A stretch of 64,000 nt of DNA from Alicyclobacillus sp. SP_1 (GTDB lineage: Bacteria; Bacillota; Bacilli; Alicyclobacillales; Alicyclobacillaceae). This document shows, piece after piece, positions 2,927 to 7,540 of this stretch. The position numbers were made by a program, and so were the translations under genes. The stretch's first letter is position 1. Each line of letters begins with the position of its first letter. Where the stretch lies: NCBI RefSeq assembly GCF_024706985.1, contig NZ_JAMCCX010000039.1:1-64000 (forward strand), given 5' to 3'. Under the pieces are notes generated by a model. It saw nothing but the letters and a program-made list of their open reading frames with translations, was not told where the DNA came from and made no database searches.

Positions 2927-2947
2927 GGCGGCTGACACTCAGCCGCC
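2927..2947. terminator. Hairpin between convergent iadA and folE
   Basis: Perfect 8-bp inverted repeat GGCGGCTG / CAGCCGCC with a 5-base loop. It sits between two convergent genes and overlaps the folE stop codon. Neither side has a run of T, so it is at best a weak intrinsic terminator. Confidence 0.4.
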
Positions 2948-3589
2948 GTATCGCACCATCTGTAACACCTCTTCACGACGCTTGATGTCTTCTGCAAACT
3001 CGCCGCGTGTAGCAATCGTCAATGTTTTGCTTCCCGGTTTTTGAATTCCTCTCATATTCATACAGAGATGCTCCGCGTCGACGACGACCATCACTCCCCG
3101 TGGGTCCAACCCACGATGCAGTGTATCCGCGATTTCGTTCGTCATCCGCTCCTGAACTTGGGGTCTCTTTGCAACTGTGTCGACTAAACGAGCAAGTTTC
3201 GAGAGTCCTGTGACCGTACCGTGACTCGGCAAATAGGCAACATGCGCACGCCCAAAAAACGGCAACAAATGATGTTCGCACATTGAATAAAATGGAATAT
3301 CTCGAACAAATACAATTTCGTCATGCTGTACATGAAACCGAGCAGAAAGTTCATTCGCAGGATTTTTATGAAGTCCAGCAAATATCTCCTCATACATCCT
3401 CGAGACGCGTGCAGGCGTGTCGAGAAGACCTTCCCGGTCTGGATTTTCTCCGACGGCCTCTAAAATCATACGCACTGCTGCTTCAATTTTTGGCTTGTCC
3501 ACGTATTGAACCGATTGTGTTTCAACTGTTTCTTCCGTCAACGTCGCCAGCGTCTCAAAATGCGCATCGCGATTGGTGTTTTTTAACAT
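2939..3589 (-). CDS. folE: GTP cyclohydrolase I
   Basis: Converts GTP to 7,8-dihydroneopterin triphosphate, the first step of tetrahydrofolate synthesis and, in many bacteria, of queuosine-type deazapurines. The 216-residue length fits the family. Zinc ligands of type I enzymes are visible: Cys104 and His107 in SMCEHH and Cys176 in EHLCMNMRG. The active-site stretches [13 protein letters not shown] and [10 protein letters not shown] are intact. The first 30 residues are a variable N-terminal extension. The start ATG at 3589 is preceded by an agggagag site. It lies downstream of the photolyase/MerR pair on the same strand, separated by 187 bases, so co-transcription is possible but not shown. 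A partner folate gene, folB, is elsewhere at 17567-17977. Confidence 0.97.
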
Positions 3590-3776: not shown

Positions 3777-4736
3777 TCACCTCTCGGAATGCGTTCGCGA
3801 GACACGATACACCTCTTCTGCAGACGTGGCGACATGAATGTGATAGAGTCGGTGGTGCTGCGCAAAACTTAACGCCCCATCCCCACCCACATAAAAATCG
3901 ACGCTCGGATGCATGCTTGCAAACTCGTCGAGTACCGACAATACTTGGTCGTCCTGTTCAAACGGCGTCCATGTCGAGGCAGACAGCGCCACGCGAACTG
4001 GCCGCAATCTCAGTACCGCTTCCTCAATCGCCCCGGGTGCTGGCGAGGCACCGAGGAAGAGCGTCCGCCAACCAGCAAGCGACGATTCAATCAAGAGCAT
4101 GTGCAAGGGTATCTCGTGACGTTCATAAGGAAGACACGAAGCGAGTAAAAGTGGCCAAGCTGGCTGTTCGCGAAGCTCACCACGCACTTGCACAAGGAAA
4201 TCGCGAACCGTGATGGAGGCAATATGCTCCTGGTATTCACTCCATTGACCGCTTTCCCACAAGCGTCCTATTTCCCGTAAAAATGGTGTGAGAATCCGGT
4301 GCATTGTCTCCGTGATTCCATACTGCTGCGAACATCTCTGAAAAAGCGCAGCCATCTCCCCTTCCCTAGAGCCTTCGCCAAGTTCAATCAAGCGATGGAC
4401 AATTCTTTGGAGAGAGGGCTGCTGAACATTGGCATCAAAATCTTGCAAAGCTCCGAGATCGTCCGTCGGGAGATTGGCTGACCTCACTGCCAATGCTGCA
4501 TTTTTTACAGAATAACCATTCTGAACAAGTTCCTGTACTTTACTCAACAATTGAACGTCCTCTGCCGTATAGACTCGGTAGCCATTTTGCAAACGCCGCG
4601 GCTCAATAATCTGATATCGCTGCTCCCACTTGCGAATGAGTTGTGTGGTCAATCCTGTTTGGTCGGCCACTTGACGAATGCTGTAGTAGCCTGTCTCGCT
4701 TCGCACGGCATCTCTCCTCCCCGACACTCGCGACAT
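3777..4736 (-). CDS. MerR-family regulator with B12-binding domain (CarH/LitR-like photoreceptor)
   Basis: Transcriptional regulator of the adenosylcobalamin-dependent light-sensing type. An N-terminal MerR winged helix spans about residues 16-85 (YYSIRQVADQTGL, IRKWEQRY). A helical B12-capping domain carries the W-x9-EH signature, Trp160, Glu170 and His171. A C-terminal B12-binding Rossmann-like domain has E205-x-H207, whose His is the expected cobalt ligand, followed by conserved hydrophobic strands and YVGGDGA. The usual Gly of the DxHxxG motif is replaced by Pro210. CarH proteins of this family bind DNA as dark tetramers and release it when light cleaves the Co-C bond; that is family knowledge. 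The gene follows the photolyase by 24 bases on the same strand, which matches the frequent genetic link between such regulators and photolyases. Confidence 0.88.
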   Translation of the reverse strand: MSRVSGRRDAVRSETGYYSIRQVADQTGLTTQLIRKWEQRYQIIEPRRLQNGYRVYTAEDVQLLSKVQELVQNGYSVKNAALAVRSANLPTDDLGALQDFDANVQQPSLQRIVHRLIELGEGSREGEMAALFQRCSQQYGITETMHRILTPFLREIGRLWESGQWSEYQEHIASITVRDFLVQVRGELREQPAWPLLLASCLPYERHEIPLHMLLIESSLAGWRTLFLGASPAPGAIEEAVLRLRPVRVALSASTWTPFEQDDQVLSVLDEFASMHPSVDFYVGGDGALSFAQHHRLYHIHVATSAEEVYRVSRTHSER

Positions 4737-4759: not shown

Positions 4760-6235
4760 CTACTTGGTCCATTCGGACAAGGCACCACCCGGTCTCAATC
4801 CATAGCTCTGACGAAGTCTCTCGAGCGCGCTATCTCGTGCAACCTTGACATCAACTATAGGCGCTGGATAATCCGGAGCAACCTCTTCCCGACACGGTTT
4901 GGACAGCAACCATGGCGCATGAATAAATTTGTCTGGTACACGCGACAGTTCTGGCACGTAGCTGCGAATAAAATCGCCATGCGGGTCGTACAGTCGGCTT
5001 TGGCGAACCGGATCGAACATTCGAAAATACGGTTGTGCATCCGTTCCGACGGACGCAGCCCATTGCCACCCTCCAACATTCAAGGGATGGTCGTAGTCGA
5101 GGAGGTGTCTCGCAAAATAGCGTTCCCCATCCCGCCAGTCTATGCCCAGTTGCTTTGTGGAGAAGGACGCGACCAACATGCGCAGACGATTCGACATGAA
5201 GCCCGTGCTATTCAACTGACGCATGGCTGCATCAATGATGGGAAATCCGGTTTCACCATGGAAAAACGCGCGCCTTTGGTGTTCGTCCGCAGGATATACG
5301 AGCGGGCGCCGCGGTCTGTGCAAGGGTTGCGCCGCGCTTTCCGGATGAGCATCCATGAGATGATAATAAAAGTCGCGCCAAGCTAACTGCCTGGAGTACG
5401 CCTCTGCAGAAATACTTTGCGTGCGGGACAGTGTTTCGAGCACAGCATACACCCAACGAGCAGACAAGGTCCCCGACCGAAACGCGTAGGATAGACGCGA
5501 AGACCCTCCACTAAGGAGATGACGGTCTTGCGCATATGCAGACAGCCCATTTTTCACAAACGACGCAAATGCGGTCAATGCCGCTTTTTCGCTGTATGTC
5601 TCTACCTCTCCTGGCGCAAAGTCCAGCAGTTCTTTCGGGATTGTCCGAAATGCGCGGTCTACATGCTTCAGCATTTCGTCCGGCAGTGCCTCGAAACGCT
5701 CTGACCCGAGACGGCATACAGCCTCTGCTATAGGTCGCTTCGGTGCACTTGCAAACCGATGATAGAATGGAGAAAAGCGCACATAACTGCTAGGTTGTCC
5801 AGACCCGTCCCGTTGTGGCATCAAGTCAGAGAGGCGCGTAATGGTTCTTTCTTCGGGCTGATGAACCTCCACACCAAAACGAGCAACCAACGCCGTGACC
5901 GCGGCATCCCTCGTTTTCGCATACGGAGTGACGTCGCGAGCAAAGACCAGATGTCGCGCGCGGATAGCCGCGCAGACCGCTGGAACGACATTAGCGGGAT
6001 CGCCATAAAGCACATGCAGCGAGATACCAAGCCGCTCCAGAGACTGCGAGAAAGCCAAAACGCTGGCCACAAAGGCTCGACGTTGCGCCAACGACCGCGT
6101 GGTGTCGCCGATTTGCTTTGGATGCAACACGACAATCGGAACAATGTTCTCTCTAGCAAGAGAGCATGCACACTCCAGAGCTGGGTTGTCGAGTAAGCGC
6201 AAATCCCGCCGCAGCCAAACGACGGTATCAATCAT
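4760..6235 (-). CDS. Deoxyribodipyrimidine photolyase (cryptochrome/photolyase family, class I)
   Basis: Light-driven FAD enzyme repairing cyclobutane pyrimidine dimers. At 491 residues it fits class I photolyases. The N-terminal alpha/beta antenna domain begins with [16 protein letters not shown]. The C-terminal FAD domain contains the R-Q-L-A-W-R-D-F-Y motif, the [12 protein letters not shown] stretch and [22 protein letters not shown], all diagnostic. The start ATG at 6235 follows a ggagagtgagga site. It is the first gene of an operon with the B12-binding MerR regulator downstream. Its promoter region at 6273-6302 carries an 11-bp-spaced repeat array that is a candidate operator for that regulator, so expression is probably induced by light. 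Confidence 0.95.
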
Positions 6236-6272: not shown

Positions 6273-6302
6273 ATTGTACAACGATTGTACAGGGTATGTA
6301 TA
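6273..6302 (-). promoter_or_regulatory. Photolyase promoter overlapped by an 11-bp-spaced operator array
   Basis: Three copies of a 7-bp element lie at 6274 (TTGTACA), 6285 (TTGTACA) and 6296 (ATGTATA), each start 11 bp apart, on the plus strand. On the minus strand the same bases contain a plausible promoter: TATACA at 6302-6297, an 18-bp spacer and TACAAT at 6278-6273, placing the transcription start about 30 bases before the photolyase ATG. Published CarH operators consist of direct repeats at about one helical turn overlapping the promoter, with a TnnACA core; TGTACA fits that core. Assignment to the regulator at 3777-4736 is inference from architecture and neighbourhood. Confidence 0.7.
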
Positions 6303-6359
6303 GTAACGGAACAAAAGAGCCTTCGATTTCCCGAAGGTCGGCGGAAGGAGAACGAAACG

Positions 6360-7421
6360 ATGTCCGAATGTCGCCTGTGCACAACGGGCCAACGAGGCTT
6401 CATTGTCCATTTTCCATCGGAAGAAACGTGCGGAAAGTATTCTTTGCGCCAGCAGGCAGACCCTTACGCTTACCACCCAATGAATGAAAAATCCGTGTGG
6501 TATGAAGAAAAACTCTTTTACAAGAACTTCGACTTTTGGCGCGAGGTCAATGCGGCCGACTCATGGATAGTGGAAGCTGCGCGTTGGGACACCGCTGGGC
6601 CAGTTTCAGAAGGCACTGCCCATTGGGCCGTTCTTCAGCAACAAAGACCAGCTTGGTGGGTGCGCGATGTGATTGACGAAGAGCGAATTCGGATGATGAT
6701 GCAGCCCATTGTCGACCGCTCGGACAACTCCATTCTCGGCTACGAGATGCTGGCGCGAGGCGTTGATTTGAACGGAGGAACCATCTCGCCTCTGACCCTC
6801 TATGAAGCCGCTCGCGCGCAGGAGGAAATGTTCCGGCTCGACCGCGCTTGCCGCATTGCTGCCATCCGCGCGGGCGCATCGCTCCCAGTCGAGCAGTTTA
6901 TCTTTGTGAACTTTATACCGACGTCCATTTATGTACCGGAACACTGTTTGCAGACGACCATTCAGGCGGCCGACAAGGCCAAAGTTCTACACACGCAAGT
7001 CATATTCGAAGTCGTGGAGACAGACTTTGTAGAAGATTTGCCTCACCTTAAGTCCATTCTCCAGTACTATCGGTCACAAGGATTTCGCTATGCCCTCGAC
7101 GATGTAGGAGAAGGTTTTAATACTTTGGAACTCATATCCCAACTCGAGCCGGACGTCATCAAACTTGACCGAAAATGGGTCAGTCAGATTGGCCACTCCT
7201 CTGAAAAACAGGAAACCGCCATGAGCATTCTCAAAGCAGCTCAGGCGGTAGGGGCCATTCCGCTGGCGGAAGGCGTAGAGACCGAGAGTGAAGCCGAGAC
7301 GCTCCGCACCATGGGATATGCATGGCAACAGGGGTATTACTATGGGCGCCCGGATTGGGCGCCGCAAACCTCGCTTCAGTGGACGAGAGCGCACGACCCC
7401 CGCTCTGTGGACAAACCTTGA
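6360..7421 (+). CDS. EAL-domain protein, putative c-di-GMP phosphodiesterase
   Basis: Hydrolysis of cyclic di-GMP is predicted. The EAL domain covers about residues 105-345 and keeps its key residues: Glu in GYEMLAR, Asn in FVNFIP, Glu in IFEVVETD, the Asp pair in ALDDVGEGF, Lys in VIKLDRKW, Glu in AEGVETE and Gln in [10 protein letters not shown]. It should therefore be catalytically competent. The first 100 residues are not a known sensor to me; they begin with a Cys-x2-Cys pair and a further Cys near residue 23, possibly a metal or redox site. Start ATG 6360 is chosen because of a ggaagg/aggag site at 6344-6350; the longer open frame from 6099 would lie antisense to the photolyase. It shares the divergent operator region with the photolyase. 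Confidence 0.9.
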
Positions 7422-7428
7422 CAGCAGC

Positions 7429-7540
7429 CACAACGGTCTGCAACGTTTCCATACAGTTACCGCAGTAGCGACAGATAGATTGGTCATCCTCCACCGGTCA
7501 CAACGGTCTGTAACGTCTCTATACAGTTACGACAGTAGCG
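7429..7540. repeat. Two imperfect 42-bp direct repeats between convergent genes
   Basis: A 42-bp unit at 7429-7470 recurs at 7499-7540 with five mismatches; the 28 bases between are unrelated. Each begins cacaacggtctg and ends cagtagcg. The pair fills the gap between the EAL gene and the end of the TetR gene. It carries no intrinsic-terminator signature and no third copy was seen in the window. Function unknown. Confidence 0.85.

Follow-up and report, generated by a model that had tools for sequence, protein, structure and literature searches.

Regulators of the CarH type are known mainly for their control of carotenoid genes. The CarH operator is described as a series of tandem 11-bp nnnnTnnACAn repeats, three of them for Thermus CarH, lying over promoter elements, and the published model holds that adenosylcobalamin-bound CarH binds these repeats in the dark and releases them in the light (PMC9304148, PMC8156234). 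The control of photolyase together with folE by a LitR-family regulator is likewise known already, for class II LitR of Pseudomonas (PMC9758184). The CarH model fits a locus in the window, i.e., the whole 64,000-nucleotide stretch of DNA analysed here, in the position and register of the repeats, in the regulator, and in the targets.

An earlier note on this DNA had reported the sequences TTGTACA, TTGTACA, and ATGTATA exactly 11 bp apart, and direct reading of the plus strand agreed, placing them at 6274–6280, 6285–6291, and 6296–6302, with starts (6274, 6285, and 6296) that advance in 11-bp steps. The TnnACA core that the note ascribed to the repeats is missing from the third unit on the plus strand; on the minus strand, which encodes the photolyase, all three units have it. 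Read on the minus strand, TATACA (6302–6297), TGTACA (6291–6286), and TGTACA (6280–6275) form the series TATACA-N5-TGTACA-N5-TGTACA (6302–6275), which contains three perfect TnnACA units in an 11-bp register and has the published form of a CarH operator, in which at least three tandem 11-bp nnnnTnnACAn repeats are found and pseudorepeats are allowed. The repeats and the promoter matches over them are listed below.

6275..6302, minus strand: candidate CarH-type operator, three tandem TnnACA units (TATACATACCC TGTACAATCGT TGTACA), from the sequence, the genome match, and window shuffles
6297..6302, minus strand: repeat unit 1, TATACA, which is the −35 of the predicted photolyase promoter (sequence, consensus scan)
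6286..6291, minus strand: repeat unit 2, TGTACA, within the promoter spacer (sequence)
6275..6280, minus strand: repeat unit 3, TGTACA, overlapping the −10 of the predicted photolyase promoter (sequence, consensus scan)
6273..6278, minus strand: −10 of the predicted photolyase promoter, TACAAT (consensus match only)
6275..6304, plus strand: predicted divergent EAL promoter, TGTACA-18-TATAGT, over the same repeats (consensus match only)

The earlier statement that the repeats coincide with the −35 and −10 boxes of a minus-strand photolyase promoter holds as a consensus match: the scan returned TATACA-18-TACAAT (6302–6273, 9/12) facing the photolyase gene, which would give the overlap with −35 and/or −10 elements that is typical of a CarH operator. 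The same scan returned a plus-strand match, TGTACA-18-TATAGT (9/12), which faces the divergent EAL gene and was absent from the earlier note. Taken alone, these promoter matches are weak, since 11 promoter-like sites were found in 13 kb against a shuffle mean of 7.6. A hairpin, CCTTCG...CGAAGG, which is terminator-like on the minus strand, lies between the operator and the EAL start (window 6320–6337) and could serve to insulate the photolyase promoter or could affect the form of the EAL leader. A strong antisense promoter match on the plus strand, TTGACA-16-GATAAT (11/12), was also observed at 4845–4872, within the 3′ end of the photolyase gene.

The genes that flank the operator are as follows.

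2939..3589, minus strand: FolE, GTP cyclohydrolase I, 187 bp past carH, a candidate for co-transcription
3777..4736, minus strand: CarH-like regulator with MerR DNA-binding and cobalamin-binding domains, 23 bp past the photolyase gene
4760..6235, minus strand: photolyase, nearest in sequence, among solved structures, to E. coli DNA photolyase (1dnp, E 1.4e-71)
6360..7421, plus strand: EAL-domain protein, a predicted c-di-GMP phosphodiesterase, divergent, a candidate co-target

The earlier note placed a B12-binding MerR protein in the photolyase operon, and the gene beside the photolyase encodes a MerR protein with a cobalamin-binding domain whose structure model has the CarH fold. The EAL-domain protein was aligned with 17 of the 18 regulator-linked EAL proteins described below (L091 was left out), and E129, N184, E217, D247, D248, K268, E304, and Q324, which we take to be the EAL catalytic positions, were invariant in 18/18 rows, in keeping with the predicted phosphodiesterase activity. 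No finer name was assigned to this protein, because the NCBI EAL models (RimA and others) all scored under their cut-offs. Two near-identical copies of a sequence of about 42 bp (cacaacggtctg...cagtagcg) lie directly 3′ of the EAL gene, at 7429–7470 and 7499–7540.

We consider it likely that a CarH-type repressor acts on the three-repeat operator and controls the photolyase and carotenoid genes, and probably folE and the EAL gene. We infer that the regulator binds, is loaded with B12, represses, is released by light, and controls the EAL gene, in the following manner. The operator would be used by the regulator of CarH/LitR type whose gene follows that of the photolyase. In the dark, the adenosylcobalamin-loaded protein would occupy the three in-phase repeats, which all lie on the same side of the DNA, and would cover the −35 and −10 from which photolyase–carH (perhaps folE) is transcribed, thereby blocking RNA polymerase. 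Light would cleave the cobalt–carbon bond and the regulator would let go, so that photolyase, the regulator itself, and perhaps FolE, for pterin/folate supply, would be made. The same regulator very likely acts on carotenoid genes through two related sites, and the overlap of the operator with the EAL promoter match suggests that the same switch probably sets the level of a c-di-GMP phosphodiesterase.

The 11-bp register is conserved near relatives of the regulator. GTDB species genomes were scanned by two short peptide patterns, and the best 80 of the 138 confirmed relatives were used. In non-coding sequence within 3.5 kb of the regulator, these 80 loci (best 80 of 138) held 96 TnnACA pairs at 11 bp, distributed over 55 loci, against 2–25 pairs for any other spacing between 6 and 24 bp in the same stretches and 4.3 ± 2.0 pairs at 11 bp in 60 shuffles. 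Beyond 4.5 kb, 11 bp was also the commonest spacing (16 vs. 2–12), and at least one 11-bp pair was present under 20 of the 28 genus labels of the best 80 of 138 relatives; such locus counts are not independent, because the loci are related. Conservation of the repeats upstream of photolyase–merR pairs, on which the earlier note had staked its reading, could be followed at the only two other adjacent pairs among the 80 loci. The pair in G054 (L050/L143) is accompanied by two perfect units at 11 bp and two degenerate units at 10–11 bp, and no pair of units was found at the adjacent pair in L128; 11 more of the 80 loci hold a photolyase-family gene farther from the regulator.

A second rule, which kept sites not well inside an ORF of at least 130 aa, yielded 92 runs in 60 of the 80 loci; it drops sites in mechanical ORFs, as in L127, L132, L134, and L135, each with a perfect three-unit site. 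The genes that start near these runs include those for the regulator (47 loci), one cluster of chemoreceptors (20), an ABC permease (15), EAL (9), CrtI-like proteins (7), FolE (5), and photolyase (1), as well as for a protein in 6 loci that we take to be YqhR-like, for which no Pfam match was found. The chemoreceptor cluster comprises 31 proteins in 27 loci, and the one representative scanned contains Protoglobin and MCPsignal domains. A unit serves as the −35 of a same-strand promoter match in 44/92 runs vs. 216/2877 isolated TnnACA sequences, and the consensus of 95 sites is approximately TTATACAAACATT[TA][TG]ACAA. An ABC transporter (ATPase and permease) lies beside the regulator in many loci (L089, L115, L118, and others, at about 6.4–7.8 kb); the 15 permease starts mentioned above are near an 11-bp pair, and the one permease scanned matched MacB_PCD and FtsX. 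Six units in 11-bp register, four of them perfect TnnACA, one with one mismatch, and one degenerate, were observed in L035 (G037, 5433–5493), where the longest ORF for the regulator begins. They fall within that ORF as called, suggesting that the true start codon of that regulator may be further in.

A search of the own genome for three TnnACA units at 11 bp with at most one mismatch gave 20 matches vs. 14 for a reversed control; the list is therefore mostly noise, and no regulon list was drawn from it. Three of the 20 matches, each with one mismatch and in register, fall at two places that are divergent promoters of a carotenoid cluster on the same contig, about 112 and 119 kb from the photolyase operator.

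C39:118708-118746: carotenoid site 1, between a CrtI-family gene and an aldehyde dehydrogenase gene
C39:124894-124921: carotenoid site 2, between a CrtI-family gene and a squalene/phytoene synthase gene

These sites were picked after inspection of the genes beside 14 fetched loci; for 20 random matches, 0.003 would be expected in the two carotenoid regions, which are about 230 bp each and were set after the matches had been seen. By reading, CCCTGTACAATC is common to site 1 and the photolyase operator. The cluster (L187, 5102–18227; G000:C39) contains three CrtI-family genes and genes for a squalene/phytoene synthase, a Caroten_synth protein, and the aldehyde dehydrogenase, and it also holds, by reading, glycosyltransferase-like and acyltransferase-like ORFs. 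As judged from sequence, the reading of the repeats at 6275–6302 as a CarH operator, first put forward in the earlier note, is well supported by the published operator form, the predicted CarH fold of the adjacent regulator, the sites at the carotenoid promoters, and the 11-bp enrichment near homologues, and binding of the regulator there would follow from this reading.

The position of the EAL gene was examined among 59 genomes of the order. The regulator is present in 13 of them (E ≤ 1e-15), and a photolyase of the window type in three (E ≤ 1e-30), namely those of the window, G054, and G019, the last of which is distant (33% identity) and unlinked to the regulator, with no operator found upstream of it. 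The EAL type at E ≤ 1e-58 occurs in 13/13 regulator genomes vs. 7 of the other 46, at a level that was chosen after the table had been seen (at 1e-30, the EAL type is in 31/59 overall); the chance of an overlap of 13 within 20 of 59 is 2e-8 with kinship ignored. In 7 of the 13 genomes (own, G029, G020, G055, G054, G044, and G046), the EAL and regulator genes are neighbours or are separated by a single gene. The region that separates EAL from the gene diverging from it contains two or three perfect units at 11 bp in six of the seven loci, and none in G055. Alicyclobacillus tolerans (G029) and A. mengziensis (G020) have a perfect three-unit site at this position; the photolyase of the window type was not found in either genome, and the arm opposite EAL encodes a PAS-type chemoreceptor and the regulator. 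A perfect three-unit site precedes carH–folE in A. montanus (G027), and no site was found at its EAL gene, which is located elsewhere.

Among the wider relatives, the EAL type occurs in the 8-kb flanks of the regulator in 18 of the 80 loci (best 80 of 138). Fifteen of these 18 hold an 11-bp run by the second, strict non-ORF rule, and L127 has its perfect three-unit site. No 11-bp run was found in the EAL-linked loci L128 and L141, the latter of which contains three ACA in register without the T. Linkage within 4 kb was observed in 18/81 rows, the window included, and is scattered, as 12 changes are needed on a quick tree. That the operator serves the photolyase side alone, with EAL a mere bystander of the divergent arrangement, is in our view unlikely, but it accords with the 63/81 rows in which no EAL gene lies within 4 kb of the regulator, with the weakness of the plus-strand EAL promoter match (9/12), and with the unlinked EAL genes: in the six genomes with both (L054, L055, L058, L061, L064, and L072), 6/6 such genes had no site of at least 10/12 within the initial 1700 bases of the locus (in L064, just 368 bases precede the match). 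Matches of 10–11/12 at L077, L079, and L080, EAL relatives without a linked regulator, were taken as background. The result for the unlinked genes counts against the view that EAL is always a target; where it is adjacent, it is still a candidate. Against the bystander explanation, EAL linkage is found without a photolyase of the window type: A. tolerans and A. mengziensis have the perfect three-unit site beside EAL, L087 (Sporosarcina), L090 (Domibacillus), and L114 (Bacillus badius) each have a site of two units, and a TTGACA-like unit points at EAL in L140 and L142. From the overlap of the operator with the promoter match and the recurrent linkage, we infer an EAL response, and the same regulator probably controls the divergent EAL gene, joining light protection to lifestyle.

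The best solved relative of the window regulator by sequence is Thermus CarH (E 5.5e-24). The structure model of the regulator (pLDDT 90) aligned with the cobalamin-binding domain of Thermus CarH with Z 22.6 and 2.2 Å over 195 residues, and it has the predicted four-helix bundle and Rossmann cobalamin domain of CarH and class I LitR. The top Foldseek match of the model was full-length CarH (E 1.2e-16), and the whole-chain TM was 0.52 because the two domains are oriented differently than in CarH. The MerR recognition helix, RKWEQRY, is one letter off RxWERRY; R35, W37, E38, R40, and Y41 are present in 81/81 regulator rows, and at position 39, 71 rows have E and 10 have Q. The Wx9EH motif is intact (W160, E170, and H171), and the axial His is H207. 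Compared with D/ExHx2G/P x41 SxT/V x22-27 GG, the window regulator has ERHEIP, 41 residues, and S252, with SxS and a counted 29 residues to GG. An intact Wx9EH beside the cobalamin motif is what separates CarH from the B12-independent CarA (PMC9304148). The score against the NCBI equivalog model NF052513 was 96.6 bits (E 1.5e-27), far under its cut-off of 400 bits, and the protein is therefore labelled CarH-type rather than an equivalog of that model. No relatives of the regulator were found in viral contigs.

The signature of light-responsive cobalamin domains given by SignatureFinder is GxxW/EH/GxxH/GxxxP (PMC11796333). The window regulator has GxxW and EH (G157..W160 and E170 H171), but where the signature has GxxH and GxxxP it shows YxxH and GxxP; it falls outside the strict SignatureFinder set, and photoreception by this protein would be an extrapolation from its relatives. 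It also has Glu at the position of Thermus CarH His132, the upper ligand after light, and the H132A variant of Thermus CarH is reported to change little on light and to stay mostly assembled (PMC10442372), which counts against a Thermus-like release by the window regulator. In CtMerR the residue there is Arg, and light is nevertheless reported to remove the adenosyl group. His at the His132 position was found in none of the 25 aligned regulators that keep the Wx9EH His.

A regulator that binds the repeats independently of B12, like CarA, or that senses oxygen, redox, or B12 status instead, is an explanation to which we give a small, though real, share of belief. The partly matched light-response signature and the Glu at the His132 position speak for it, as do the 56/81 CarH-like rows with Ser, Ala, or another residue at position 171, the His of Wx9EH, in which the operator type is kept; this absence needs one change on a quick tree, which does not distinguish gain from loss, and many such loci hold protoglobin chemoreceptors. 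The share of rows with or without the His is a biased estimate, since one search pattern includes the Wx9EH His and the best 80 of 138 relatives were taken. Because the His is absent yet the operator is kept, this large clade may read a different signal. On the other side, the window regulator keeps the W, E, and H of Wx9EH and the axial His, by which CarH is told from CarA, sites of this operator type lie at photolyase and carotenoid genes, and CtMerR loses its adenosyl group despite its Arg. The own genome encodes one cobalamin adenosyltransferase and has three cobalamin riboswitches.

Use of the repeats by another regulator, such as GlnR/TnrA of the MerR superfamily or an SOS-type repressor, is very improbable. 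The GlnR/TnrA box is TGTNAN7TNACA, which TGTAC-N7-GTACA in the repeats resembles, but two of its fixed positions fail by reading, and three units at 11 bp beside carH-like, photolyase, and carotenoid genes are in keeping with CarH. An SOS-type site was likewise rejected by reading. Chance, or a mere repetition of promoter hexamers, can be dismissed almost entirely and is refuted as far as sequence allows, for although TTGACA and TATAAT share letters with TnnACA, TNTACA ×3 at 11 bp with at most two mismatches gave three overlapping matches in the 64-kb window, all at the operator, vs. 0.02 expected in shuffles, the exact three-unit pattern occurred once in the 3,395,104-base genome (reversed-pattern control, 0), an isolated TnnACA is rarely a −35, and the spacing peaks at 11 bp.

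The CarH-type reading has a wider form, to which we assign about even chances: that CarH-family regulators with 11-bp operators are, in the Bacillota, a widespread switch coupling light or B12 state to behaviour, acting directly on EAL and chemoreceptor genes (protoglobin HemAT or PAS type), either along with carotenoid and photolyase genes or in their place, with the large clade lacking the Wx9EH His perhaps reading a different signal, and with the window as a case in which one operator joins photorepair to c-di-GMP turnover. Should the operator function in the way proposed, one type of B12 photoreceptor would have photorepair under its control throughout the Bacillota, and probably also c-di-GMP turnover and aerotaxis receptors. 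Related bacteria with the same type of site beside signalling, aerotaxis, and pigment genes hint that the sensor governs behaviour as well as sun protection. The 95-site consensus offers a ready tool for mapping such regulons, and with a clade that has the operator without the key chromophore residue, what that clade senses becomes a testable question. Among open-licence papers, none was found that links a CarH-type regulator to an EAL gene or to a HemAT-type receptor, and such work may nonetheless exist.

In form, the operator repeats by themselves are an ordinary CarH operator, and the variant lies in the linked genes and the altered cobalamin pocket; the shared divergent region with the EAL gene is what the window adds to the CarH picture. 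Thermus thermophilus CarH (PDB 5c8d, 5c8e) is alike in its operator, in which three TnnACA repeats follow one another at 11 bp over promoter elements, and in its MerR and cobalamin-binding fold with Wx9EH and axial His, whereas the window operator lies at photolyase–carH and probably also serves the EAL gene, and the window cobalamin domain, with about 25% identity, has Glu for His132 and YxxH/GxxP for GxxH/GxxxP. Bacillus megaterium CarH/LitR is likewise a Gram-positive CarH with 11-bp repeats over the −35 or −10 (PMC9304148, PMC8156234), but with four repeats, or three and one pseudorepeat, against three in the window. The class II LitR proteins of Pseudomonas, PplR and PmlR, resemble the window case in their photolyase and folE genes, which are light-induced there, and in their TGTACA-type half-sites (PMC9758184). 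Their sites, however, are TGTACA-N12-TGTACA, 18 bp apart, in contrast to the 11-bp register of the window, and they keep half of the B12-binding region and receive the light signal via short LOV proteins, whereas the window regulator has a complete predicted cobalamin domain fold. Myxococcus xanthus CarA uses the same operator type; it is described as lacking the Trp of Wx9EH and as needing no B12 (PMC9304148), whereas this Trp is present in the window regulator.
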